Shown here piece after piece: positions 19,173 through 47,455 of a stretch of 50,891 nucleotides of DNA. The DNA is from a virus. The notes below the pieces were generated by a model. It was not told where the DNA came from and made no database searches. It saw only the letters and a program-made list of their open reading frames with translations. The first letter of the stretch is position 1, and each line of letters opens with the position of its first letter. A program made the position numbers and the translations under genes. The stretch lies in the IMG/VR virus record IMGVR_UViG_3300009553_000030, positions 1 to 50,891 of that record; one strand, 5' to 3'.

Positions 19173-19412
19173 GTGACTGATAATCTCACAGGCATCCAGC
19201 GGGCCATCATCGCGGCGGGCGGCACGCAAGCCATGCTCGCGGATCGACTGCTTGAAGCCGGCGAGCGGGTCGATCAAAGCCTGATATCGCGATGGCTCGC
19301 GCATGGCTACGTTCCGACCAGGCGGGCCATCATCGTGGCACAGGTCACGCAAATCCCGATCGCCGATCTTCTCAAACCCCGAAAGGCCCGCAATGGCAAA
19401 GCACCCGACTGA
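19173..19412 (+). CDS. Cro/YdaS-like transcriptional regulator
   Basis: The GTG at 19173 gives 79 residues. The order GGTQAMLADRLLEAGERVDQ, SLISRWLAHGYVPTRRA and a trailing LLKP resembles the YdaS/Cro helix-turn-helix family, where the second helix of the motif contains SLISRW. Upstream in-frame codons would extend into the promoter region and look non-coding. It probably binds operators in 19091-19172. The next gene starts 20 bases before its stop. Confidence 0.7.
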   Translation: MTDNLTGIQRAIIAAGGTQAMLADRLLEAGERVDQSLISRWLAHGYVPTRRAIIVAQVTQIPIADLLKPRKARNGKAPD

Positions 19413-20103
19413 GCAAAGCAACGTGTCGTCCGAGTTGTGGGCCGAGGCCATGGGTCAGTTCACGATGGACACCAGTCTGATCGATCGAGCCTCGAAGATC
19501 GTCAAACGCGCCCGCGATCGGCGGAAGAAAAATCAGGCACGATATGCGGAGGCCGGCGTGCCAGCGGCAATGATCGCCAAACTCTACGGCGAGGACCGTA
19601 TGACCGAAAGCGCGCGGATCAGCCTTTACGCCATCGAGCAAGTGGGCCGGCGCGCACTCGACCTGTGGAACGCTGAGACGCCCGAGGACTTCAACCGGAT
19701 CATGGAGCGGGCGGCGGCCACGGAAGCCGCTATCGGCCTCGGGGCGGAAGCCAGGGAGCATGCCCGCGTCTACGTGTATGGCTTCAACGCGGCGATGCAC
19801 GGCCACCAATCGAAAGATGATAACCCACACGCGGCTGGCACCCGCAACCATGTGACGTGGCTGGAAGGCTATGGCGACGCGTCGAAGGAAATGGCCGAGA
19901 TGGAAGAATTTCTCAGCCCGCCGTCCCTGACCGAGGCCGTGGAGCGTGAGGCTGGCGCGATGGCGGCCGCAACCGATACCGTTGCAAAGACAGACGCTCC
20001 CGCGAAACGCCCCTCCCGCAAGAAAGCCGCAGCCGCGCCACCGGCAGAGGAACCCGCCGCGGGCATCTTCGAGATGCCGGAGATGCCGGGACTGCCGAAT
20101 TGA
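19393..20103 (+). CDS. Rmf/CrpP-like domain protein with Ala/Pro-rich tail
   Basis: The ATG at 19393 gives 236 residues. Residues about 25-65 are basic and helical (SKIVKRARDRRKKNQARYAE). Residues about 120-165 contain VYVYGFNAAMHGHQ, then NPHAAGT and WLEGYGDAS. This follows the G..A...G.....NP.......W..G pattern of the ribosome modulation factor/CrpP fold seen on many phage proteins. The last 60 residues are a low-complexity Ala/Pro/Lys tail. The specific function is unknown; binding RNA or a host protein is possible. Confidence 0.55.
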   Translation: MAKHPTEQSNVSSELWAEAMGQFTMDTSLIDRASKIVKRARDRRKKNQARYAEAGVPAAMIAKLYGEDRMTESARISLYAIEQVGRRALDLWNAETPEDFNRIMERAAATEAAIGLGAEAREHARVYVYGFNAAMHGHQSKDDNPHAAGTRNHVTWLEGYGDASKEMAEMEEFLSPPSLTEAVEREAGAMAAATDTVAKTDAPAKRPSRKKAAAAPPAEEPAAGIFEMPEMPGLPN

Positions 20104-20258: not shown

Positions 20259-20725
20259 TGGCCTGGTCACTCAGCGAACCGATTCGCATCGTGGTTCCCG
20301 GCCCTCCCACAGCCTGGCAGCGCGCCGGTCATCGCATCGCCAAGGCCAAATCTGGCGCACTGTTCGTGCAGTCCTATACCCAGACCAAAACCCGCGAGGC
20401 GCAAACTGATATCAAGGTCATTGCGCACGAGACCATGAAAGGCCGCGCGCCGATCAATGGCCCAATCGATCTGCGCTTCGCCGCGTTCCTTCCCGTGCCC
20501 GCATCGTGGTCGAAAAAGAAAACCCAGGACGCGCTTGCCGATCGGGTGCGACCAACGACAAAGCCGGACTTCGACAACTACTCACGAATGATCGATGCGC
20601 TGAAGCAAATCGTTTGGACGGATGACAGTCGGGTAACGGATGCTGGCGTGTTCAAACGCTATTCCGCAACCCCGAAGTTGGTTATCGAAGTCCGCGCCCT
20701 GACCTGGACCGACGCACCAGACTGA
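20258..20725 (+). CDS. rusA: RusA-family Holliday junction resolvase
   Basis: The ATG at 20258 gives 155 residues. IRIVVPGPPTAWQRAGHRI at the front and KPDFDNYSRMIDALKQIVWT with TDDSRVTDAGVFKRYS later are the RusA signature: the Asp residues of KPDFDN and TDD bind metal. RusA-type resolvases cut four-way junctions during phage recombination and before packaging. The longer frame to 20228 is rejected because the ATG at 20258 is coupled to the preceding stop. Its end overlaps the convergent PEP-CTERM-like gene by 44 bases. Confidence 0.9.
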   Translation: MAWSLSEPIRIVVPGPPTAWQRAGHRIAKAKSGALFVQSYTQTKTREAQTDIKVIAHETMKGRAPINGPIDLRFAAFLPVPASWSKKKTQDALADRVRPTTKPDFDNYSRMIDALKQIVWTDDSRVTDAGVFKRYSATPKLVIEVRALTWTDAPD

Positions 20726-20999
20726 TCCCCGCAATCCCCACGACTACCAACAGGACCGAACCCGGCTCGGGGATTGGCGCCGGAGCAACGCGCTCATAGC
20801 CACCAACGGGGATCGGCGTCGCGTTCAATAACGGGGGCACGGCCAGCCCAACACCGCCGGCACACACGATCGCACCACTGACCTTCGCGGCTTTGACCAG
20901 GGCCAGTTGCTTGCCGATATGCGGCATACTTGCCCATTGCTTGAAGGTCAGCCAGCGCCACGTCCACCGGCCGCACAACCACACATGCGTCCACACCAT
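20682..20999 (-). CDS. Membrane protein with PEP-CTERM-like C-terminus
   Basis: The ATG at 20999 lies just after the methyltransferase stop and gives 105 residues. An internal hydrophobic segment (VSGAIVCAGGVGLAVPPLL) could be a signal or membrane helix. The end reads PIPEPGSVLLVVVGIAGISL followed by an Arg-rich VRRSRSGRGLR. This is the full PEP-CTERM pattern: a PEP motif, about 15 hydrophobic residues and a basic tail. In bacteria such tails are processed by exosortases. It may instead be a simple two-helix membrane protein whose second helix is preceded by PEP by chance. It is the last gene of the leftward operon. Confidence 0.6.
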   Translation of the reverse strand: MVWTHVWLCGRWTWRWLTFKQWASMPHIGKQLALVKAAKVSGAIVCAGGVGLAVPPLLNATPIPVGGYERVAPAPIPEPGSVLLVVVGIAGISLVRRSRSGRGLR

Positions 21000-21000
21000 G

Positions 21001-21786
21001 CTACACCCTCCCAAACAGGCCGAGTTCAATACTGTCAGGCTTGTAGACCCTCGCGATATGCCGCGCCAAAGGTTCAGGGATGCGCGCGATCATCGCGGAT
21101 GCGGCTTTGCGGGCCGGGGACTTGCTACTGGTCAGGCGCGATATCGAGGGCTGCGAGGCGTTGAACCAATCGCCACCGCATTTTATGTGCTCATCCACGA
21201 TGCGCTGTTGAATACCGCCCGGCCCGAAAACACCATGCTTCATGCCCTTAACCTTTACACCGCTATGATCGACAGAAGCCGTTTGAAACGATCCGCCGCT
21301 TCCATCGAAGCGAAAGCCTGGAACCTTCGAAGCCTTGAATGTCATCGGCATCAACGCCGGCACGTCACCCCATAGGTAAAACGACCCAAAATTCCACCGT
21401 GCCCGTCCGACCCATGGCTGCGCGCCGCGGACGTTCTCGACCACGAGCGGAATGTGATGTCCGGCCGCTTCGATCGCCTCGCGTTGGATGCGGAAGCAGG
21501 CTTCGAACAGCGAGTTGTCAGGCGGCGGGAGTGCCTTGGCGCGGGACCATGGCATCGCTCGATATGAATAGCCTTGGCATGGCGGGGAGGCCACCAGGAG
21601 CGCCGCCTCCCGAAATTGCGACCCATGCAGCGTCAACACGTCCTGGATGACCAGTTGCGCGGGATAGCAGTGCTCGCCGTAGACGTGCCTCTCGATATCG
21701 AAACCGATCACGTCCCACCCTTCGGCCAGAAGTCCGTCAGACCAGCCTCCGAGGCCCGCATAAAGGTCGATCGCCAGCGGCTTCAT
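21001..21786 (-). CDS. DNA cytosine-5 methyltransferase, GLFG tail
   Basis: The ATG at 21786 overlaps the previous stop (ATGA) and gives 261 residues, short for the family. Motif I is DLYAGLGGWSDGL, motif IV is ASPPCQGYSYRA (catalytic Cys in PPCQG) and motif VI is VVENVRG. The target-recognition domain is small. The enzyme methylates C5 of cytosine in DNA. No restriction partner is nearby, so anti-restriction protection or gene regulation is likely. The protein ends SIELGLFGRV, the C-terminal motif shared with seven other proteins of this operon. Confidence 0.9.
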   Translation of the reverse strand: MKPLAIDLYAGLGGWSDGLLAEGWDVIGFDIERHVYGEHCYPAQLVIQDVLTLHGSQFREAALLVASPPCQGYSYRAMPWSRAKALPPPDNSLFEACFRIQREAIEAAGHHIPLVVENVRGAQPWVGRARWNFGSFYLWGDVPALMPMTFKASKVPGFRFDGSGGSFQTASVDHSGVKVKGMKHGVFGPGGIQQRIVDEHIKCGGDWFNASQPSISRLTSSKSPARKAASAMIARIPEPLARHIARVYKPDSIELGLFGRV

Positions 21787-22043
21787 ACTAACCCAAACAG
21801 ACCGGGACCAATCGCCTCCGGCGTCGCCCGCTCCACCAACACACGCCGGCAATGCGCTCGCCACTCTTCTGTCCAATCCGCACTCAATCGCCCGCGGTTC
21901 GCCGCTTCGAACGCCTGCCACTGCGTCTCGTATTCGGACTGCGGTATCTTGGCCAGCATCGCGCTGATGCGCCACGTAGCGGGACGCCAGTCGCGCGGGA
22001 GAGGTGTGCCGATCGGGGTGGCGGGACGGGGACGTTTAGCCAT
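21783..22043 (-). CDS. Small helical protein, GLFG tail
   Basis: The ATG at 22043 gives 86 residues and overlaps the previous gene's TAA by eight bases; a longer frame upstream looks non-coding. The body is helical and basic (MLAKIPQSEYETQWQAFEAA, then LSADWTEEWRAHCRRVLVE). No family is recognised. It ends EAIGPGLFGLV, another member of the GLFG-tailed set. It is coupled to the cytosine methyltransferase downstream. Confidence 0.6.
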   Translation of the reverse strand: MAKRPRPATPIGTPLPRDWRPATWRISAMLAKIPQSEYETQWQAFEAANRGRLSADWTEEWRAHCRRVLVERATPEAIGPGLFGLV

Positions 22044-22380
22044 CGTTCGCCCCACTCGTTGTCGATTTCTCCCGCCGCCGATGTTCGCCCGTCGTCGGAT
22101 ATCCCCGATCGTCATAGTCCAGCGCGTCGTGTTCGGCCTTGAGCTTTCGGTCCCGATGCCAGATTTCCATTTGCGTCGCGATCCGCATGGCCTCGGTGAT
22201 TTGCGGACGGTCAGTCTCGGGGCGCAACCCCATCCCGATTTCTTGGAGCCACAAATGACACCAGATTTTGATCGTGATCGGAGAGGCACGATCCCGGCCG
22301 GTCAGAATGAACACGGGCTCGTCCGGTTCGCACTTGTCCAGATATTTGAGACTGCGGGAGCGGGTTCGTGAGGTTGCCAT
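22036..22380 (-). CDS. Conserved small phage protein
   Basis: Starts at ATG 22380, which overlaps the adenine-type methyltransferase stop (TGATG); a GTG one codon earlier is also possible. It has 114 residues with DEPVFILTGRDRASPITIKI near the front, a segment I recall from many small phage proteins of unknown role, followed by ATQMEIWHRDRKLKAEHDAL. The C-terminus is basic and polar. It has no GLFG tail, unlike its two neighbours. Confidence 0.6.
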   Translation of the reverse strand: MATSRTRSRSLKYLDKCEPDEPVFILTGRDRASPITIKIWCHLWLQEIGMGLRPETDRPQITEAMRIATQMEIWHRDRKLKAEHDALDYDDRGYPTTGEHRRREKSTTSGANDG

Positions 22381-23423
22381 CACGCTTGTCCAAACAGGCC
22401 GATGGCGGGTTCCGGGAATGGCTCCACGCCTTGATCGTCGCCGAACACATCAAACAGCGTCCCGGCGTTCTTCTGCCTCTCAGCCGTTCGCAGATTGGCC
22501 ACGGCCTGCCGATAGTAGCTGGCCTTGAGTTCCGCACCGCAGAACTTCCGGTCCATCTCGATCGCGATGTAGCCGACGCTGCCGATGCCCGTGAACGGGG
22601 AGAAAACCACGTCGCCGGGATTGGTCCACAGATCGAGGCATCGGCGGATCGGCGTCAACTGCAAGGGGCTGATGTGGCGCTCGTCGTGTTCGGCGCGGGC
22701 AACGCGATGGGTCAGAACGTCCGATTGTGCAATGTCCATCCAGACGGGCTCGGCATATCGTTGCCAAATGTGGATTGACTTGTTTTCCTCGCGTGTCCGA
22801 TTGCCGCTGGACTCCCAATTGGCATTCGCGTGGGCGGTCAGTTGCTCATCCGTCATATCGTCGCCGTAGTAGGTTTCGAAGATGCCTGACACGGGATCAT
22901 CGTTTTCTCCGGGCTTTCGCATCGTGATGATCTGATCGCAGATTGCCATACGAGATAGCGCCGAGTCCTTGACGATCTGCTTATGCAACAAACCGATGGC
23001 TTTGGTTCGCTGCATCGCCGATACCGGATCTTTCCGGATGATCGTGCGGGAATGGAGAATGTATCCAACGTCCTCGCACAGCCGCCGGATGTCATCGGGG
23101 AACGCGCGCATACCGATAAAGCCGTCGCGTGTGATTGAGGTCGGAAGGTCCATCGCGTGAAACGACAATTGCCGTCCAGGCTTCAGCACGCGGAACAGTT
23201 CGGACAGAACGAACCTGAATTGCGCGAAGAAGTCGGCATCGTTGCGGCAATTCGACAGGTCGCGCGCATCGTCGCTGAACACATAGAGGGAACAAAACGG
23301 CGGAGAAAAGAGCGAATACCCAACGCTGTTACTCGGCATCCCGCGCAGCACATTCACGCAATCATCGTTATACAACTGCCAACTCTCGCCAGCGGCCTGA
23401 TCCATCACGCTCACTTGATCCAT
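22380..23423 (-). CDS. DNA N4/N6 methyltransferase, GLFG tail
   Basis: A 347-residue protein. The catalytic motif SPPF lies in GYSLFSPPFCSLYVF (residues about 35-49). The AdoMet motif is near the C-terminus in DVVFSPFTGIGSVGYIAIEM, so the order is that of beta-class N4-cytosine or N6-adenine amino methyltransferases. The SPPF form slightly favours N4-cytosine, but both are possible. It differs from CcrM, which carries DPPY. It lies next to the helicase and upstream of the C5 enzyme, with no nuclease partner. The end reads EPAIGLFGQA. Confidence 0.88.
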   Translation of the reverse strand: MDQVSVMDQAAGESWQLYNDDCVNVLRGMPSNSVGYSLFSPPFCSLYVFSDDARDLSNCRNDADFFAQFRFVLSELFRVLKPGRQLSFHAMDLPTSITRDGFIGMRAFPDDIRRLCEDVGYILHSRTIIRKDPVSAMQRTKAIGLLHKQIVKDSALSRMAICDQIITMRKPGENDDPVSGIFETYYGDDMTDEQLTAHANANWESSGNRTREENKSIHIWQRYAEPVWMDIAQSDVLTHRVARAEHDERHISPLQLTPIRRCLDLWTNPGDVVFSPFTGIGSVGYIAIEMDRKFCGAELKASYYRQAVANLRTAERQKNAGTLFDVFGDDQGVEPFPEPAIGLFGQA

Positions 23424-24835
23424 GCTGGCAATTCCATCCGTTTGTTCGATTGTTGAATGAACGTGGCGTTGCGTCCACCGACGACGTTCTCTCGCATTAA
23501 GTCTCTCATGTGATCAGACATCGAGTCCAGCATCAATTCAAATGCGATCTCTTTTCGTTTGAGATTGGCGACGATGGCCCCTTCTAGTTCCGAGGCCACG
23601 AAATAAGCGTCAACCGGACGCAACTGACCGAAGCGCCAGACTCGCCGGATGCCCTGATAGATCATTTCGAAACTATCTGTGAGGCCAACGCAAAGAAGCC
23701 TCGCGCAATGCTGATAGTTCATACCGTGGGCGGCGATCGATCCCTTGGTCACGAGCCAGAGAGGGTCGCGTTGTTTGAAGCCTAGCAGCCGCTTAACCTT
23801 AACGTCCTGGTCATGCCGCCCTGCGACCTGCAAGGCCCGAGGGAGCGCCTTTTCAAGTGCATCGGCCTCGGAGTTCAAATTACAGAACAGGAGCCACGGC
23901 TCGTCCGGTTCGCGCATCACTATCTCAACAGCCTTCGCGACTCGATCCGCCGCCGTGTCCCGCCGCACACCAATCCGTTGCGAAAGCGTTGACGCCATCA
24001 TAGGGAACAGTTCGCCAGCCGTGGGCTTGTATTCTGCCGCGACGGTGACCTGATGCAAATTGAGCGGGGGGAGGTCATACCCTGGCTCGTCAAAGCCGAG
24101 GTCACGCGGATGCCGAACCATGACGCTCCACGATGCCAGCCAGCGCCAGAAGTCCGCGGCGGCGTGTCGCTTCATACGCCATCCATCGTTGCCCTGTGTG
24201 GCATCTCCGGCGCGGATCGATCCGTCATGAACGAAAAACATTGCCAGCATTTCCTTGCTGTCCATGACACCAAGAAACTCGGAGTGCTGGCCAAGCTCGG
24301 TATAATCATTGGGACTTGGAGTGGCTGTGCAGCACAGGCGCCAGGGAATGTCGCGGCACGCCTTGGTCAGGAGTTTGCGCGTCTTGCCGTCTTGCGATTT
24401 GATGATGCCGCTCTCATCCAGCACGATCCCGACGAAAGCAGATATGTCGAATTTCTCGAAGCGTTCGTAATTGGTGACGACAATCGTAAGATCACCAACG
24501 GTGGTCTGATCAGTGGCATACCCCACACCATGGATGCCGAACTTCGCGGCCTCGGCGACGGTCTGTTCCGCGACAGCCAGCGGACACAGGATCAGGATAC
24601 GACGATAGGTGTGATCCGCGACAGCGGAGGCCCATGCCAGTTGCATGAGCGTCTTCCCAAGTCCCGTTCCGGCGAAGATCGCGGCACGACCGCGACGCAA
24701 AGCCCAGTTCACGATCGCCGATTGAAACGGCTTAAGGCTCGACGGAAGGTCAGGAACCACAACCAACCCGCTCGGCGCATCCGCTGGCGATTTGCCCGCG
24801 AGAAACCGTTGATACTCGGCAACGTCAAACGCCAT
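23411..24835 (-). CDS. SNF2-like superfamily 2 helicase/ATPase
   Basis: The ATG at 24835 gives 474 residues. Walker A is AGTGLGKTLMQLAWA and the Walker B region is IVLDESGIIKSQDGKTRK, so the usual DEAH box is DESG. Motif III is TATPSPND. The C-terminal RecA domain has GMNYQHCARLLCVGLTDSFE and YQGIRRVWRFGQ (motif VI). This is the SNF2-related helicase family common in phage genomes. Such proteins translocate on double-stranded DNA and may assist replication or recombination. It sits between a small protein gene and the methyltransferase, overlapping both. Confidence 0.9.
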   Translation of the reverse strand: MAFDVAEYQRFLAGKSPADAPSGLVVVPDLPSSLKPFQSAIVNWALRRGRAAIFAGTGLGKTLMQLAWASAVADHTYRRILILCPLAVAEQTVAEAAKFGIHGVGYATDQTTVGDLTIVVTNYERFEKFDISAFVGIVLDESGIIKSQDGKTRKLLTKACRDIPWRLCCTATPSPNDYTELGQHSEFLGVMDSKEMLAMFFVHDGSIRAGDATQGNDGWRMKRHAAADFWRWLASWSVMVRHPRDLGFDEPGYDLPPLNLHQVTVAAEYKPTAGELFPMMASTLSQRIGVRRDTAADRVAKAVEIVMREPDEPWLLFCNLNSEADALEKALPRALQVAGRHDQDVKVKRLLGFKQRDPLWLVTKGSIAAHGMNYQHCARLLCVGLTDSFEMIYQGIRRVWRFGQLRPVDAYFVASELEGAIVANLKRKEIAFELMLDSMSDHMRDLMRENVVGGRNATFIQQSNKRMELPAWIK

Positions 24836-25028
24836 CAGGCCATCTCCGGTAGAGCGGCGCGGTGGCCATCTCTTGTTTCGCCAGTGATATCTCTCGCACC
24901 CAATCATTCCACGCTTTGTCCATCAGCGGGGCGATGAACTCGGGTCGATAGGGTTCGCCTGTATCCCATCGTTCTCGGCTTGCTTGGGAACGCCCGTCAA
25001 TCTCGCCATTCGCGCGGCGCCGTTTCAC
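24825..25028 (-). CDS. Unrecognised small basic protein, 67 residues
   Basis: Starts at GTG 25028, overlapping the TGA of the previous gene (GTGA), and ends overlapping the helicase start. The sequence is basic at the front (MKRRRANGEIDGRSQASRER) and amphipathic later (AWNDWVREISLAKQEMATAP). No family is recognised. Confidence 0.5.
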   Translation of the reverse strand: MKRRRANGEIDGRSQASRERWDTGEPYRPEFIAPLMDKAWNDWVREISLAKQEMATAPLYRRWPDGV

Positions 25029-25207
25029 GGCTTCAATCCCCGCAACCGCTCCACGATCGCGCGCATTATAGCGATCTTCCTGTCCGCGTCATCCTGTTTC
25101 ATGCGTCCGTTTATTACGAGTTTTGGATAGACGTTTATTCTCATGCGGACTTCGCGCTCGGCATCGACGATCATCTCTTGCAAAGACGGTTCGAACAGGT
25201 CACTCAC
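25025..25207 (-). CDS. Small helical phage protein, 60 residues
   Basis: Starts at GTG 25207, which overlaps the preceding TGA. The protein begins MSDLFEPSLQEMIVDAEREV, then RMRINVYPKLVINGRM and DADRKIAIMRAIVERL. I recall similar short proteins with a VYP..V..GRM core in many phages, always without known function. Coupled on both sides. Confidence 0.55.
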   Translation of the reverse strand: MSDLFEPSLQEMIVDAEREVRMRINVYPKLVINGRMKQDDADRKIAIMRAIVERLRGLKP

Positions 25208-25953
25208 GGTCGATCCCCAAACATTCCAAGGTCGATATCAACCGCAGGCGCGGCGATCTCCGGCGCCTCGCTAGGGCTGCCCGCCGCGATCCATCGCAAC
25301 TCGTCAAACATCGCCGGACCGTGCTGTGGAGCGTGAAGCGAGACGGCGCGGGCGAGGGTTTGAAGCAGGAACCCGCGATATGAAAAGCCGTGCTGACCTT
25401 GGCCGTTCATTGGTGCCTCTGTGGCGATCCTCGCAGCCAGTCGCCGGACGCCAGCCTCATCATCCCAATCCGCGGCGAGGTCGGTGCGGGATCGAGGAAC
25501 CCACTTGCGCCAAACCGCGATATCGGCGGCGCGCACATCGTTCTTGATCAGCCAGCCGAACGCCTCATCCGACTTGGCGCGCATCAGTTCCAGCGAGCGC
25601 TCGGCCTGCGGGTCAGTATCGGCCCGATACCAGCCGATCAGCCACAACTTGCCGTCCATGGACAGCGGAGCGGCGTCGGCCTCGGGTGGCAGGACGTTGG
25701 ATGTCACTGGCGCGTTCGCCCGTTGCCACGTCTCGAGCGCCTGCGTGACCTTGGCCTCGTTCCAGTAGCGTTCGGTGGCGCACACGGCATCGGCGCTGGC
25801 GGCACAGAAGCAATCGGCGGGGAAGCGCGCGATGAAAGCGGGGAGCGAAAGCCGGGCCTGTATCTCGACCTGATCGGTGCTCATCGTGACGGCCTGGCGG
25901 GCCATGACGGTCAGAATCCAGGTTCTCGTCTGTTTCTGGGTTGCCTTAGCCAT
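25204..25953 (-). CDS. Unrecognised protein, 249 residues, GMFG tail
   Basis: Starts at ATG 25953 within the stop region of the next upstream gene. The front is basic and hydrophobic (RTWILTVMARQAVTMSTD). A middle part has two Trp-rich segments (KLWLIGWYRADTD, DIAVWRKWVPRSR). The end reads AVDIDLGMFGDRP, a variant of the GLFG tail. No enzyme motif is seen. Its position between small helical proteins and a replication-type protein suggests a DNA-related role. Confidence 0.6.
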   Translation of the reverse strand: MAKATQKQTRTWILTVMARQAVTMSTDQVEIQARLSLPAFIARFPADCFCAASADAVCATERYWNEAKVTQALETWQRANAPVTSNVLPPEADAAPLSMDGKLWLIGWYRADTDPQAERSLELMRAKSDEAFGWLIKNDVRAADIAVWRKWVPRSRTDLAADWDDEAGVRRLAARIATEAPMNGQGQHGFSYRGFLLQTLARAVSLHAPQHGPAMFDELRWIAAGSPSEAPEIAAPAVDIDLGMFGDRP

Positions 25954-26146
25954 TGAGGCAGAACTCCGGGGCGATAACCAAAGCCTCGCGATTAGTGATC
26001 AGGCAGTGCGTGCATTGCGCTTCCCCATGTCCGACGCGTGACGGTCCCCATGTATGACGACGCGGGCCAGATAGTTCGGTCTTTGTGGGCGGAATTAACT
26101 GATTGAGGTGCGCCAGACAGTAGGGGATGGGGTTGCGATCAGTCAC
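25946..26146 (-). CDS. Small Cys-containing protein, 66 residues
   Basis: The GTG at 26146 overlaps the replication-type gene by eight bases. The protein contains PIPYCLAHLNQL and later AQCTHCLITNREAL with a final Cys (EFCLNG). The Cys and His residues (C-x2-H and C-x2-C) could form one zinc site. The longer frame to 26260 overlaps the upstream gene and looks non-coding. Function unknown. Confidence 0.5.
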   Translation of the reverse strand: MTDRNPIPYCLAHLNQLIPPTKTELSGPRRHTWGPSRVGHGEAQCTHCLITNREALVIAPEFCLNG

Positions 26147-26504
26147 CGGCCGATCCCTCCAACAGGTTCCCCGCGTCCCATCGCGCCTCGGCATCGCGGG
26201 CGAGGAGTTCCATGGCGCCATTCGTGAACATCGGGCGGGTCGATTGCGTGGGCAATTCATCGGCCCACCCTTCCGATCTCAACCAACTGGCCGGATAGGG
26301 GATAAACTGCTTCTCCTGTAGTCCCTGCCGCCGCGCGTTTGCCTTCATGGCCTCGAATGTGCCGGCCGCCAGATGGGCGCGTAGGCCGTCCAGGATCGTC
26401 TCGGCGGGCGTGTCTTTGATGCGGGCATTCCAGGCTTTGCGGGCCTCGCCCTTGGCGACGCGCTTCGGATACAGCACCCAGAAATCGTCCAGGGTGGCGG
26501 TCAT
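26139..26504 (-). CDS. Replication-protein C-terminal-like domain
   Basis: A 121-residue protein with FWVLYPKRVAKGEARKAWNA near the front and KQFIPYPASWLRSEGWADEL later. This FW..YP.....K..A...W...(FIP.P.TWL....W) signature is the C-terminal domain of many phage replication initiators and DnaD/lambda O-type proteins. There it usually follows a DNA-binding domain, which is missing here. It may help load the host helicase, but that is inference. Overlaps the next gene's start (TCAT). Confidence 0.7.
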   Translation of the reverse strand: MTATLDDFWVLYPKRVAKGEARKAWNARIKDTPAETILDGLRAHLAAGTFEAMKANARRQGLQEKQFIPYPASWLRSEGWADELPTQSTRPMFTNGAMELLARDAEARWDAGNLLEGSAGD

Positions 26505-26779
26505 AGGCCCGCGGCCTTATTGATTGCGGCGCCAGCGGCCTCCAGGGTTGTGCCGTAATAGCCCAACTTTTCGCAGGTTCGCGTCAAATCGATCAGCGCA
26601 GCCAACGGATCTGGAGCGGCGGCCGTGAGGCGGGCATCGTCCTCACCGATATAGCCGGTGAGGTTAAACCCGTTTGGCGTGTAGCCATCGCCCCCGGCGA
26701 CTTCGAAATATCCCTGAGTGTCGGGGTTATTGTCCCCGATCGGATCGAAATAACGCCAAGGCCCTGGTGTGTGCGGCAT
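26501..26779 (-). CDS. PHTPGPW-type conserved phage protein
   Basis: The ATG at 26779 (GGAG seven bases upstream) gives 92 residues. It begins MPHTPGPWRYFDPIGDN, the start of a widespread but uncharacterised group of small phage and prophage proteins. Later it has GEDDARLTAAAPDPLAALID and a helical end. A longer open frame to 26848 exists, but without a ribosome site and with the conserved start inside it. First gene after a structured non-coding stretch. Confidence 0.65.
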   Translation of the reverse strand: MPHTPGPWRYFDPIGDNNPDTQGYFEVAGGDGYTPNGFNLTGYIGEDDARLTAAAPDPLAALIDLTRTCEKLGYYGTTLEAAGAAINKAAGL

Positions 26780-26954
26780 ACCGTCTCCTGTGACAATTTC
26801 AGGACTGACGGTTGCAACGAAGTCGCTCGCCACGTATTTACGGGCCAACGGTTCGTCAAAACCACGGTCCCTCGTGGTTTAGGCTTCAAGCGGGGGCGGA
26901 GTTTCGCGGCTCCGTTCCCCACCGTTTCAAGCATCCTCCGCGCGAGGCGGATCG
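26780..26954 (-). other. Non-coding gap with two hairpins
   Basis: The longest non-coding gap of the leftward operon, 175 bases. One perfect 8-bp hairpin pairs AAACCACG (26859-26866) with CGTGGTTT (26873-26880). A second pairs GGGG and CGGAG (26893-26901) with CTCCG and CCCC (26910-26920), with a two-base bulge. On the leftward transcript the first hairpin is followed by TTTTG, which fits a weak terminator or attenuator. A leader RNA or replication origin is also possible. Confidence 0.35.
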
Positions 26955-27365
26955 TCAAGCGGTCCCGAACAGACCGAGGTCGATTTGGCTCCAATTCCAA
27001 AACCCCTGACGGCCGACCGCAGGCACAGGCGGATCGATCGGCTCCAGATCAGTCAGGTGCCAAGCGAATCGGCCCTCTCCATAATCCCCAAACTCATCCC
27101 ACGGCACGGCATCCGCCGGGTAGACAGTTCGAAGGATTGCAGTGCAGACGAAGGCGCCGAGGGGCGGCGGGACATTTGCCTTTGATACGCGATACCACCA
27201 TTCGCGATCATCTTTGTCGATCCGGCGTTTCGCCGCATGGATCGCAATTCGCTGACCAACAAATCGCCGAGGTGGCGTCCAATGGCGGGTTTCGTATGGC
27301 TTCACGCCGATCGCGATGAAGCTGGCCCAAGGCTGCCACAGGGAGATTGCCGGAAGATCAGCCAT
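26955..27365 (-). CDS. ASCH-domain protein, GLFG tail
   Basis: The ATG at 27365 overlaps the preceding stop (TGATG) and gives 136 residues. ISLWQPWASFIAIGVKPYET is the classic ASCH start (P.W...I..G.K..E.R), then RIAIHAAKR and DDREWWYRVS. ASCH domains are PUA-like RNA- or modified-nucleoside-binding folds; some hydrolyse N4-acetylcytidine. The end is NWSQIDLGLFGTA. This member of the GLFG set is the last gene before a 175-base gap, so the motif cannot be explained by overlap with a downstream ribosome site. Confidence 0.82.
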   Translation of the reverse strand: MADLPAISLWQPWASFIAIGVKPYETRHWTPPRRFVGQRIAIHAAKRRIDKDDREWWYRVSKANVPPPLGAFVCTAILRTVYPADAVPWDEFGDYGEGRFAWHLTDLEPIDPPVPAVGRQGFWNWSQIDLGLFGTA

Positions 27366-27649
27366 CACATTGATCCGAACAGGCCGAGGTTGATTTCCTT
27401 CGCCGCTTGCTCGCGAGCCTTGCGCGCGGCCTTGTCCGCATCGTTCGGCCTGTATCGTGCAGCGCATTTATGGATCGACATTACCGTCCAGCAGGCCATC
27501 CCGCGCTCGTCATAGATGGTCGCGGGGCCGTCCTCGATCCCGGCATCGGTCATCTGGCGGATCACGTCGAACCACGCATCCGTGCCGGTCGCGCGGAGGT
27601 TGGTCCAATAGGCGTTGCCGGCCGATCGATCGAAGTTGATGCAGATCAT
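27365..27649 (-). CDS. Unrecognised small protein, 94 residues, GLFG tail
   Basis: The ATG at 27649 overlaps the preceding stop (TGATG). The sequence begins MICINFDRSAGNAYWTNLRA, has a middle WFDVIRQMTDAGIEDG and WTVMSIHKCAARYRP, then a Lys/Ala helix. It ends KEINLGLFGSM. The long frame up to 27955 looks non-coding beyond 27649. No family is recognised. Confidence 0.6.
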   Translation of the reverse strand: MICINFDRSAGNAYWTNLRATGTDAWFDVIRQMTDAGIEDGPATIYDERGMACWTVMSIHKCAARYRPNDADKAARKAREQAAKEINLGLFGSM

Positions 27650-27810
27650 CAGTGCGCCACCATATAAGCAACCGTGGCCACGAACGCGACCCAAACGGCA
27701 TAGGTCGCGGCCGCCTTCAAGACGTAGCGGATGCGCTCCACGCGGACCTCGCGGGCGATGCGCCGGCGGTAGGCATCTGTCTCGGGTTCCATGCTGACGA
27801 GGCGCATCAT
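27649..27810 (-). CDS. Small membrane protein, 53 residues
   Basis: Too short for routine ORF calling, but overlapping stops and starts on both sides support it (ATGA at 27807-27810, TGATG at 27647-27651). It begins MMRLVSMEPETDAYRRRIAR, a basic cytoplasmic part, then has one membrane helix (AAATYAVWVAFVATVAYMV) and ends at once with AH. The N-terminus is probably inside the cell by the positive-inside rule. Function unknown. Confidence 0.55.
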   Translation of the reverse strand: MMRLVSMEPETDAYRRRIAREVRVERIRYVLKAAATYAVWVAFVATVAYMVAH

Positions 27811-28235
27811 GGGGCCTTTCCGAACAGGCCGACATCGGGCGGCGGGGGCGAAAGCGATTGCTCAACCAGCACCGCAAGCTCAGCCGATGCGCTTCGGCGC
27901 GTCTTTTGGGCACTTTCCTGAACCTTTTCCCAGAGGGATCGGGGCAGACGGACATTAATTGTGTCTTCCTCCGACGACTGATCAGGGTGGTCCGGCGTTC
28001 TGACGGTCATCATCTCGGCTTGATATTCGAACCACTCCCCGGCAGCGCGGACGCCGGAGAAAAAGCCGTGCAACCATGTCTCTGCCCAACGGGGCGCCTC
28101 TATTGTTCGGATCACGACCAACGGAAACGGCTGTCCACACTGAAGGTTGGCACGGCGCTTCGCCAACGTCCGCTCGTCCTTTGTCCAGCCGATCTTGACG
28201 TGGCCAGTGTTGCCCGCGCGCATGAAGTAGATCAT
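27807..28235 (-). CDS. GIY-YIG (T5orf172-type) and RHH fusion, GLFG tail
   Basis: The ATG at 28235 overlaps the RHH gene stop (ATGA) and gives 142 residues. Residues 1-75 match the T5orf172/GIY-YIG type: IYFMRAGNTGHVKIGWTKDE, then RRANLQCGQPFPL and GEWFEYQ. Residues about 88-130 look like a ribbon-helix-helix domain (DTINVRLPRSLWEKVQESAQ followed by an Ala/Leu helix). It ends PPDVGLFGKAP. Such a fusion could place a nuclease-like domain at specific DNA sites. The catalytic Arg/Glu of a working nuclease are not clearly placed. Confidence 0.7.
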   Translation of the reverse strand: MIYFMRAGNTGHVKIGWTKDERTLAKRRANLQCGQPFPLVVIRTIEAPRWAETWLHGFFSGVRAAGEWFEYQAEMMTVRTPDHPDQSSEEDTINVRLPRSLWEKVQESAQKTRRSASAELAVLVEQSLSPPPPDVGLFGKAP

Positions 28236-28420
28236 GGGACCTGCCCGAAAACACCCGGACCCGGCGGCGAAACCCATCCCATCATACCCTGTCGATTCAA
28301 GGATACGATCAGGGACGCGAGCGAGCGATCCTCGGCTTTCGCGCGGATGCGAAGCTGTTCAAGCAGATCGGCCGGTATCCGAATGGTGATCGGCGGCGCT
28401 TTGGTCTGTGTGTCATTCAT
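28232..28420 (-). CDS. Ribbon-helix-helix regulator, GVFG tail
   Basis: A 62-residue protein, first gene of the leftward operon. PPITIRIPADLLEQLRIRAK, then EDRSLASLIVSLNRQGM is the Arc/CopG ribbon-helix-helix pattern. No ribosome site is seen, and the inverted repeat begins at the base next to the ATG, so the message may be leaderless. It ends GPGVFGQVP, a variant of the shared tail. It probably represses its own divergent promoter region (28421-28552). Confidence 0.75.
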   Translation of the reverse strand: MNDTQTKAPPITIRIPADLLEQLRIRAKAEDRSLASLIVSLNRQGMMGWVSPPGPGVFGQVP

Positions 28421-31984: not shown

Positions 31985-32776
31985 ATGTTCAATAAAAATC
32001 ACGGCGGGGGTTTGCCTGACACCGACATTGATAACGTGCTCGTGGAATTACAGGGAAAGGAGAAGTTGCGGCGATCGAAAGCGCTGATAGACTTTCCGCC
32101 GGTCGGAGACGCGCCAGAACGTCAGCCCGGTGACAACATCATCATCGCGGGATGGCTTGCTGGGTTGTCCACGAACGCCATCGCTGTCCACGCTGGACGC
32201 ACCAAGAACGCCGTCGTGGGTCGCTCGCACCGTTTGATGGCACTTGGATTGATTGAGCCGCGAGAAACGCCGATCTATCGCGATGACCCAAATCACCCGC
32301 CGCGCCAGCCAAAGCCGAAGCGAGTGAAGGGCGACGCGACCTTGCCACCACTTCTGAGTGCGGTTGCTGAAACTGAATTGGACGCCATGGGGGAACCCGC
32401 GATGCCGCCCTACACGCCTCCCGCCTTCCAGCGTCCGACAGAGATCAGACAGCCCGTGGACCACGCCAAGGCCGTCAGGGCAGCCGTCGCCGCGAAGTCC
32501 AGTGGTATCCCCTCTCCGTTCAGTGATCGGATCTACCGCGAGCCGAAGCCGGCCGAGACGCTCATGCCCTACCGCCGCACTCAGGCATGCTGCTGGCCGA
32601 TCGGGGAGCCGGGCGCGCGTGACTTCCGGTATTGCGATGCGCCCCACAAGAATCGGACATACTGCGATGAGCATGAGGCGCTGGCGTTTGTGAAGGTGCG
32701 CCCCGCGTCCGAGCGCAATGACCTGAGATTGAACGTCGGCGGGGCGACTTTGGTTGGATTTCGGTTTCAGCAGTGA
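31985..32776 (+). CDS. GcrA-type cell-cycle regulator homologue
   Basis: A 263-residue protein. Residues about 48-95 resemble the GcrA helix-turn-helix (IIAGWLAGLSTNAIAVHAGR, then TKNAVVGRSHRL, matching the family's TRNAVIGK.HRL). The C-terminus has CCWPIGEPGARDFRYC and a later YCDEHEALAFV, the GcrA C-terminal Cys/His box. In alphaproteobacteria GcrA binds RNA polymerase sigma-70 and activates promoters that carry CcrM methylation. This copy is longer, with a Pro-rich linker, and sits just upstream of the terminase genes. It may switch host RNA polymerase to late phage genes. Confidence 0.75.
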   Translation: MFNKNHGGGLPDTDIDNVLVELQGKEKLRRSKALIDFPPVGDAPERQPGDNIIIAGWLAGLSTNAIAVHAGRTKNAVVGRSHRLMALGLIEPRETPIYRDDPNHPPRQPKPKRVKGDATLPPLLSAVAETELDAMGEPAMPPYTPPAFQRPTEIRQPVDHAKAVRAAVAAKSSGIPSPFSDRIYREPKPAETLMPYRRTQACCWPIGEPGARDFRYCDAPHKNRTYCDEHEALAFVKVRPASERNDLRLNVGGATLVGFRFQQ

Positions 32777-45460: not shown

Positions 45461-47455
45461 ATGTCCGCGACAATCAGCAGCATCCCGGCATCCTACTACG
45501 TCAACGTCGTCCCTGGCGTGATCGACGCTGGCGCGGCCGGACTGTCTCTGACCGAACTGATGCTGACCACCAGCACGCGGCCGCCGATTGGCGCGGTGCT
45601 CTCATTCCCGAACCTCGCGGCGGTCAAGTCGTATTTCGGCAACACGAGTGATGAGGCCGTGGAGGCAACGGTCTATTTCGGCGGCTACAATCTGGCGACG
45701 ATCCAGCCGGGCATGTTGATGTTTGCCCAATATCCGCTGGACGACGTTGGGGCCTATCTCCGGGGCGGCGACGTTTCGACGCTGACCCTCACGCAGCTCC
45801 AGGCGCTTTCCGGAACGATCATCGTGACGATCGACGGCACGCCGCACACATCGGCGACGATCGACCTCTCGACGGCAACGAGTTTCACGAACGCCTCGCA
45901 GTTGATCGCTGACGGACTGGTGGGGCTGGTGGGGCCGACGCAGGCCACGTTCACGGCATCGGTTGGCGCGACCGCCACCGGCACCGGGACAGGCACCAGT
46001 CTCGTGCTTAGTCCCGTGGTTGGCGTCATCCATCCAGGCACGGCGCTCAAGGCCACCATCACGGGAACGGGCATCCCGGCGAACACCTACATCGTCTCAC
46101 AATCCACCGGTTCGGCGGGCGGCGCTGGCACCTACATCACCAATCAGGCCACGACGGCATCGAGCGCGGCGATCACGGTGACGAGCAACGTGCTCGACGT
46201 GACGGCGGTCGCAACCGGCGCGTTGGCGGTCGGACAGGAAGTCGTCGGCACGGGGATCAGCGACAATTTCATCGCGGCACAACTGACCGGGACCGCCGGC
46301 GCGGCTGGCACTTACACGATCACCACGGGCGATCAGCAGGCGTCCGAGAGTATGTCTGGCGTCATGCCCATCGTCACATATGATAGCCAGTCAGGCGGCT
46401 TTGTGATCGTGTCCTCAACCACGGGGGCATCGTCCACCATCGGATTCGCATCGGGCACGCTAGCCGCTGGCGTTCTCCTGACCTCGGCCACTGGCGCGGT
46501 CACATCGCAGGGCGCGGATGCGGCGGTTCCTGGCGATTTCATGGACGATATCGTCGCTCAGACCGTCAACTTCGCGACGTTCCAGACGATCTTCGATCCC
46601 GACGAAGGTTCAGGCAACACGCAAAAGTTGCTCTTTTCGGCATGGGTCAATTCGACCGATGACCAATACGTCTACCTCTGCACTGATACCGACATCACGT
46701 CGACGGAAAGCGACGATGCCGCATCGAGCATGGGGCAAATCCTCAAGGGCCTGGACAGCTCGGGCACGGTGCTGATTTACGAACCGGTGGACGGCAACAA
46801 TCATCTGGCGGCGTTCGCGGGAGGCTATGCGGCATCCGTCAACTTCAACGCCACCAACGGACGCGCGACGGCGGATTACAAGAGCCAATCCGGCCTTTCG
46901 CCAAGCGTTACGAGCGTCCTGGCCAAGTCGAACCTCATCGCCAATGGCTACAACTCCTACGATGGCGTGGCGAACCGCGGCGCGTCCTGGCAGTTTTTCG
47001 ACAACGGATCGATCACCGGTCCATTCACCTGGTTCGATACGTATATCAACCAAATCTGGCTCAACAATCAGTGCCAGAACGCGTTGATGCAGTTGCTCAC
47101 GACGCTCGGCCGGATCCCATACAATCCGGCCGGATACGGCATGATCCGGCAGACCCTCACAGGCGGCGCGGATGGTTCGAAGGTGACGTTACCGCCCGCC
47201 TCTCCTGTCGCCGCTGGTCTCAACAATGGCGTCATCACGCCGAACGTGCCGCTGTCCTCGGTGCAAGCGATTGAGGTCAACACGCTGGCCGGGTTCAAGA
47301 TCGATGATATCCTGTCCTCGCAGGGCTACTACCTGATCATCCAGCCCGCGACGGCGCAGGTCCGGCAGGCGCGCAATTCGCCGACGATCATCCTGTTATA
47401 TTGCGACGGCGGATCGATCCAAAGGATAAACCTATCCTCTTTCGTGGTCCTTTGA
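45461..47455 (+). CDS. Contractile tail sheath protein, DUF3383 family
   Basis: A 664-residue protein. [60 protein letters not shown] and later [20 protein letters not shown] with a C-terminal [17 protein letters not shown] are DUF3383 sheath features. Between residues about 165 and 300 two tandem copies of the Gly/Thr module are inserted ([20 protein letters not shown] and [20 protein letters not shown]), probably facing the outside. The HNH gene follows in a TGATG overlap at its stop. Confidence 0.88.

Follow-up and report, generated by a model that had tools for sequence, protein, structure and literature searches.

The 50,891-nucleotide viral sequence considered here (the window; positions 1 to 50,891 of IMG/VR record IMGVR_UViG_3300009553_000030) has a GC content of 60% and about 80 genes, as called with a simple custom gene caller. 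An early leftward operon of approximately 15 genes (28420-21001) encodes eight proteins that end in the same short pattern, G[LMV]FG followed by two to four residues. These C-terminal tails are treated here as candidate docking motifs for the beta sliding clamp of the host.

Eight proteins with a common C-terminus

An earlier note on this DNA had pointed to eight proteins with a common C-terminal pattern and two to four residues after FG. A six-frame scan recovered the same eight, each a genuine minus-strand gene with that spacing. All eight lie in the operon, where they make up about half of the genes, compared with a tenth of the genes in the window. No other called gene of the window ends this way, and the sole further match of the six-frame scan is an implausible open reading frame at 46387. 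The tails, in the order in which they are transcribed, are as follows.

28235-28261, minus strand: GPGVFGQVP, tail of a 62-residue RHH (CopG/Arc-like) protein (gene 28232-28420); the body is RHH_5/Arc by Pfam, and the tail lies outside the domain
27810-27836, minus strand: DVGLFGKAP, tail of a fusion of GIY-YIG (MUG113/T5orf172) and Arc/RHH domains, identified by Pfam (gene 27807-28235)
27368-27394, minus strand: INLGLFGSM, tail of a 94-residue protein (gene 27365-27649)
26958-26984, minus strand: IDLGLFGTA, tail of an ASCH-like protein, phrog_3193 in PHROGs (gene 26955-27365)
25207-25236, minus strand: IDLGMFGDRP, tail of a 249-residue protein
22383-22406, minus strand: AIGLFGQA, tail of an N4/N6 DNA methyltransferase (gene 22380-23423)
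21786-21809, minus strand: GPGLFGLV, tail of an 86-residue protein to which no family was assigned (gene 21783-22043)
21004-21030, minus strand: IELGLFGRV, tail of a C5-cytosine DNA methyltransferase (gene 21001-21786)

Four of the eight bodies were confirmed by Pfam. The 94-residue protein has no PHROG match, and the longer open reading frame containing it has no Pfam match; the same is true of the longer open reading frame at the ASCH-like gene, whose ASCH label comes from the earlier note. That note had also assigned the bodies to different families, which holds with one correction: homology links the RHH protein to the RHH half of the GIY-YIG fusion (30.6% identity, E value 8e-6), so that the tail is carried by approximately seven independent bodies, not eight.

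The sharing of C-termini was assessed by listing every gapped three-residue pattern within the final ten residues of each protein and counting the different proteins that share it. The most-shared pattern in the window is G.FG, found at 8 of 79 C-termini, whereas in 2000 draws of random internal 10-mers from these proteins the most-shared pattern reached 3-6 proteins. Because the test ran over all patterns, the excess survives correction for a motif chosen afterwards, and the motif is indeed commoner in its genome than expected, a check that had been proposed together with the original observation.

On alignment, the tail is an add-on that is absent from homologues of the C5 methyltransferase and of the ASCH-like protein. 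For the C5 methyltransferase, some 80 homologues with 57-72% identity were fetched; they either stop near residue 250 of 261 or have a different continuation, and none has a GLFG tail, which makes the window tail an 11-residue addition. Similarly, the ASCH-like homologue of locus L098 stops at ...LWNWSQP where the window protein runs NWSQ-IDLGLFGTA. In the N4/N6 methyltransferase, the one tail of the eight that was modelled, residues 321-347 are predicted to be disordered (predicted local distance difference test, pLDDT, below 50, from a ten-sequence alignment with a mean pLDDT of only 64); a disordered location is typical of clamp motifs. A pattern search returned no relatives of the 249-residue protein, and its sole orthologue was found through the related phage L002. 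A GIY-YIG homologue in loci L005 and L033 that ends in RPDIFGEAA was not counted as tailed because a Pfam YdaS match spans that end. At L005 (1973-2407), GIY-YIG is fused to a YdaS/Cro-type domain where the window has Arc/RHH; the nuclease module is the same and its DNA-binding partner is swapped.

Clamp-like motifs in homologues, related phages and the host class

The N4/N6 methyltransferase belongs to a family for which 114 nonredundant relatives were gathered from viruses and prophages of many phyla. In 79 of these, [LMIV][FW] follows the enzyme body. When the 79 are aligned on the aromatic residue (F), glutamine occupies the position four residues before it (F-4) in 38, versus 0-10 at other positions, with D, T, S and G dominating F-2 and leucine dominating F-1. 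Judged by sequence, this aligned pattern is the beta-clamp consensus QxxLF. Examples include QLDLF (L173, L249), QIDLF (L273, L277), QLSLF (L215), QPDMFG (L169, L216) and QVDMFG (L263), and in the cultured Alteromonas phage XX1924 the enzyme ends in QTELF. The homologues often stop directly after LF. Outside this family, QxxLF was seen at 30 C-termini of the same loci versus 12.3 expected (2.4-fold), and order-reversed controls showed no C-terminal excess; all enrichment counts given here leave out 54 loci (L104-L157). The consensus and the enrichment together suggest that members of the family probably bind sliding clamps or did so in the past, and that the window enzyme has a Gln-less form of the motif. 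A recognisable motif at the same place in homologues was thus found for the N4/N6 methyltransferase; the other tailed families have too few homologues for this comparison.

Among related phages, the hydrophobic-Phe core is kept and the rest of the tail drifts. The nearest relative, L002, has an early module that is partly syntenic with that of the window. Ten orthologue pairs link the two genomes, and both pairs that are tailed in the window keep [LM]F in L002 in a changed context: the N4/N6 methyltransferases (70% identical) end in AIGLFGQA versus ADTMFGE, and the 249-residue protein and its orthologue (49% identity) in IDLGMFGDRP versus EFDDEMFR. The other eight pairs, including the helicase, the replication-initiation-like protein and a 721-residue protein, are untailed in both genomes. 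L002 has two more proteins with such ends, DARGMFGE and VADEMFAP. The window RHH protein could not be aligned with a tailed 63-residue L002 protein, and a search with a 132-residue protein returned only the L002 contig. In the fragment L003, the methyltransferase ends in EPVSLFGEI and its 87-residue neighbour in DVVLFGEIV. LF tails that come close to the canonical clamp motif are also found on several proteins of a third phage: in L099 (6653-10567; also in L100), the C-termini are CPLTLDLFAEDV for an ASCH-like homologue, CPETLDLFAATTEAV for its upstream neighbour and QTSLFDDKGIT for a D12-class methyltransferase nearby.

The phage encodes a GcrA-type cell-cycle regulator (31985-32776; Pfam PF07750, E value 7.5e-14). 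GcrA is an alphaproteobacterial protein, and the host is therefore probably an alphaproteobacterium, an assignment made at class level. The gene also suggests possible interference with the methylation and cell-cycle circuit of the host. Across 33 alphaproteobacterial genomes, the internal clamp motif of the polymerase subunit DnaE has glutamine in 31, leucine or methionine at F-1 in 32, phenylalanine in all 33 and glycine directly after it in 28, with mostly S, G or N at F-2. This glycine is outside the classic QL[SD]LF consensus, yet it is present in all eight tails as well as in most of the DnaE proteins compared. Some DnaE motifs, such as QGGLFG and QVGLFG, are set apart from the window core chiefly by their glutamine. 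The DnaE motif varies even within one family, and some genomes lack the glutamine (GALDMFGG, GIVDMFGG, GMTDMFGG).

When loci with at least 15 genes were scanned for shared tails, the window ranked first and an archaeal provirus, L304, second. At L304 (1523-10909), six proteins end in SSLFED, TSLFED, ESLFDF, QQSLFDF, NSLFNF and ESLFNF. They are a TGT-like protein, a Methyltransf_11 protein, a DUF6884-like protein, a 210-residue protein, a DUF2284-like protein and an N4/N6 methyltransferase; no mutual homology was detectable among them, and their Pfam families differ where any matches. As far as sequence can tell, unrelated proteins of L304 thus share one clamp-like tail, in another dialect than that of the window. 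The L304 methyltransferase is homologous to the window N4/N6 enzyme and is followed directly by an RFC/Rad17-like clamp-loader protein. The locus also has a B-family polymerase, and its tailed genes adjoin those for GTP cyclohydrolase I and QueC. The surrounding genome, labelled Candidatus Nitrosotalea, has PCNA and no beta clamp; it is a metagenome-assembled contig, so this host assignment is less secure than for an isolate. The L304 tails have the spacing of the archaeal PIP-box core, reportedly exemplified by the Pyrococcus RFC large subunit, and fit the full PIP-box in part (QQSLFDF, SLFNF). In the L304 genome, no archaeal FEN1 was found, and Q-x-[ST]-L-F-[DN]-F was present on none of the host proteins.

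Proposed docking to the host clamp and competing explanations

The G[LMV]FG tails are probably C-terminal docking motifs for the host beta sliding clamp. The earlier note had proposed a linear motif directed to one hub, for which it put the host clamp first, and the comparisons with the methyltransferase family, DnaE, L002 and L304 support that proposal. Placed at the end of a flexible C-terminus, the tail would mimic the DnaE clamp motif, with [D/E/N/A/G]-[L/V/I/P]-G-[L/M/V]-F-G in place of Q-x-[S/G/N]-L-F-G. Clamp positions 4 and 5 are L, M or V followed by F in 8/8 tails (L or M in 7). Neither a polymerase, which the earlier note had not found either, nor a clamp was recognised in the phage, which must therefore use the host replisome. 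There, the tail would tether both DNA methyltransferases, the GIY-YIG nuclease, the RHH proteins and the remaining tailed proteins to the clamp on phage DNA as it replicates, possibly so that new phage DNA is modified at the fork. Since glutamine is missing from all eight tails, binding would probably be weak and transient. Avidity on the dimeric clamp may aid it, as may residues beside the tail, and it would leave the polymerase in place.

Several findings weigh against this reading. The residues at F-4 are D, D, N, E, D, A, G and G, which bears out the earlier description of a clamp-like pentapeptide lacking its usual glutamine. In E. coli (Escherichia coli) consensus clamp peptides, replacing this glutamine with Glu, Ala or Gly strongly weakens binding, and replacement with Asn does so only modestly; the sole natural ligand known to lack it is the delta subunit (AMSLF; PMC11139829). 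The second motif position is L in four tails, V in one, I in one and proline in two. The known early replication proteins of the phage (helicase, replication-initiation-like protein and DnaQ-like exonuclease) have no tail, and Gln-less LFG is not generally enriched at C-termini across all related loci (43 versus 35.2 expected). Finally, a search for the exact DLGLFG/ELGLFG tail in other IMG/VR contigs gave 10 matches, all in implausible or antisense open reading frames; this flavour of tail is private to the phage, and a private partner is thus possible. In the literature, the glutamine is described as important rather than essential (PMC11139829). Clamp motifs of the alphaproteobacterium Acidiphilium follow the consensus less closely than E. 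coli motifs do (PMC4549789).

The missing glutamine, which is the strongest single determinant of clamp binding, and the private flavour would also suit docking to a different single hub of phage or host origin, such as a scaffold, RNA polymerase or a recombination protein, the likeness to clamp motifs then being partly coincidental. Several window proteins have no family match, and one of them could be that hub. This explanation is unlikely, although it is the most serious competitor: canonical clamp motifs with glutamine occupy the equivalent position in homologues of the tailed methyltransferase, the glycine after phenylalanine matches DnaE of the host class, the archaeal parallel resembles PCNA motifs, and no alternative hub is indicated.

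The remaining explanations concern the DNA or the fate of the proteins. At the DNA level, the 12-nucleotide core is 79% identical between tailed genes, compared with 32% for the 60 nucleotides upstream and 28% for the 45 nucleotides downstream. The first glycine codon of the tails is GGC, GGT or GGA, and phenylalanine is encoded by TTT in four genes and TTC in four. With synonymous codons varying and flanks unrelated, the signal lies at the peptide level. A DNA-level element was considered and rejected, as CTGTTYGGR occurs twice outside the tails versus 1.8 times expected by chance.

Two codon biases are nonetheless present. The glycine after phenylalanine is GGA or GGG in 8/8 tails (genome background 35%), which fits an overlap of the tail with the ribosome-binding site of the next gene, whose start lies at or just after the stop of the tailed gene in 7/8. 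From this it might be argued that the peptide is an idle by-product of gene overlap. That explanation is largely refuted and has very little probability left: a ribosome-binding site accounts for neither Leu-Phe nor the glycine two residues earlier, the phenylalanine codon is evenly split, no start codon lies close downstream of the ASCH-like gene, the helicase and other overlapping genes of the operon are untailed, and the methyltransferase homologues often terminate directly after LF. The earlier note had dismissed such a by-product on the strength of the ASCH-like gene, a judgement that stands for Leu-Phe and has to be qualified for the biased glycine codon. The second bias, CTG for the tail leucine in 6/6, may hint at copying, and neither bias explains Leu-Phe. 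Spread of the tails by gene-to-gene copying of a short DNA segment, then kept without function or as a neutral end, would draw on this leucine codon and on the similarity of the core, and the RHH and GIY-YIG/RHH proteins may share their tail by descent. It is slightly less probable again than gene overlap, because the flanks are unrelated, the codons differ at synonymous positions, and a tail copied neutrally would not have retained [LM]F across orthologues that are 49-70% identical while the residues around it changed. Least probable is a C-terminal degradation or sorting tag for a host protease or adaptor, which would suit the extreme C-terminus of early proteins, as these often need removal; the final residues are what is normally recognised in a C-degron, and here those are not conserved (QVP, KAP, SM, TA, DRP, QA, LV, RV), the core lying two to four residues inside.

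Docking on the host clamp would place the tails beside several known systems. They resemble the beta-clamp motif (clamp-binding motif, CBM; QL[SD]LF, QxxLF or Dalrymple motif) in their hydrophobic-Phe core, the small residue at F-2, the aliphatic residue three before phenylalanine in 6/8 tails (proline in the other two), their C-terminal place on DNA-acting proteins and, with alphaproteobacterial DnaE, the glycine after phenylalanine. They differ in having D, E, N, A or G for the glutamine of position 1, and the likeness is one of sequence. C-terminal clamp motifs have precedents in transposases (PMC4549789) and in T4 gp33 and gp55 (PMC9690074). In insertion sequences, unrelated mobile-element proteins likewise gain a short C-terminal clamp motif convergently, with one protein per element and the glutamine kept (PMC4549789), whereas in the window approximately seven unrelated proteins share one flavour. 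The gp45-clamp tails of T4 gp33 and gp55 (LDFL) are also short hydrophobic C-termini common to several phage proteins (PMC9690074). However, T4 encodes its own clamp, whereas the window tails would use that of the host and sit on methyltransferases, a nuclease and DNA-binding proteins. The archaeal and eukaryotic PIP-box consists of glutamine, any two residues, a small hydrophobic residue, any two residues and two aromatics (PMC3504372). As proposed here, the window tails would act as it does, as terminal peptides that dock on a sliding clamp, and six PIP-box-like tails occur in L304; unlike it, they have no glutamine and no aromatic pair, with a single phenylalanine and no aromatic residue three positions past the leucine.

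Clamp-binding motifs have so far been known one protein at a time, and no report of a clamp tail shared across the early proteins of a phage was found in the open-access literature. If the window tails do bind the clamp, they show how a virus without a polymerase brings its enzymes to host replication forks, through at least seven unrelated tailed early proteins. C-termini shared within one genome would then offer a way to find replisome-targeted proteins, including small uncharacterised ones, and the clamp motif as now accepted would have to be broadened to include the Gln-less variant. The archaeal parallel in L304 suggests a general strategy. There is perhaps an even chance that viruses of bacteria and archaea can tag whole sets of unrelated early proteins with one C-terminal clamp-docking peptide that is specific to the genome, has been gained convergently by one gene after another and corresponds to the dialect of the host clamp (LFG in this alphaproteobacterial phage, SLF[DN]F in the archaeal provirus). 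The window would then exemplify a Gln-less beta-clamp class that consensus searches miss.

Untailed and neighbouring genes

Untailed members of the operon include the following.

23411-24835, minus strand: SNF2-like helicase
26139-26504, minus strand: replication-initiation-like protein
22036, 24825, 25025, 26501 and 27649, minus strand: small proteins

Many relatives of the SNF2-like helicase, whose gene adjoins that of the N4/N6 methyltransferase, end with a conserved M-E-[LI]-P-x-W-[LI], for example MELPAWIK, MELPSWLI and MELPTWL, a further case of a short conserved C-terminus. The small protein encoded directly downstream of the C5 methyltransferase, at 20682-20999, carries a PEP-CTERM sorting motif (PF07589, 21.2 bits, cutoff 20.7), which is unusual for a phage. 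Further along, at 19393-20103, a 236-residue protein has a sub-threshold match to the ribosome modulation factor RMF (19 bits, cutoff 27.9).

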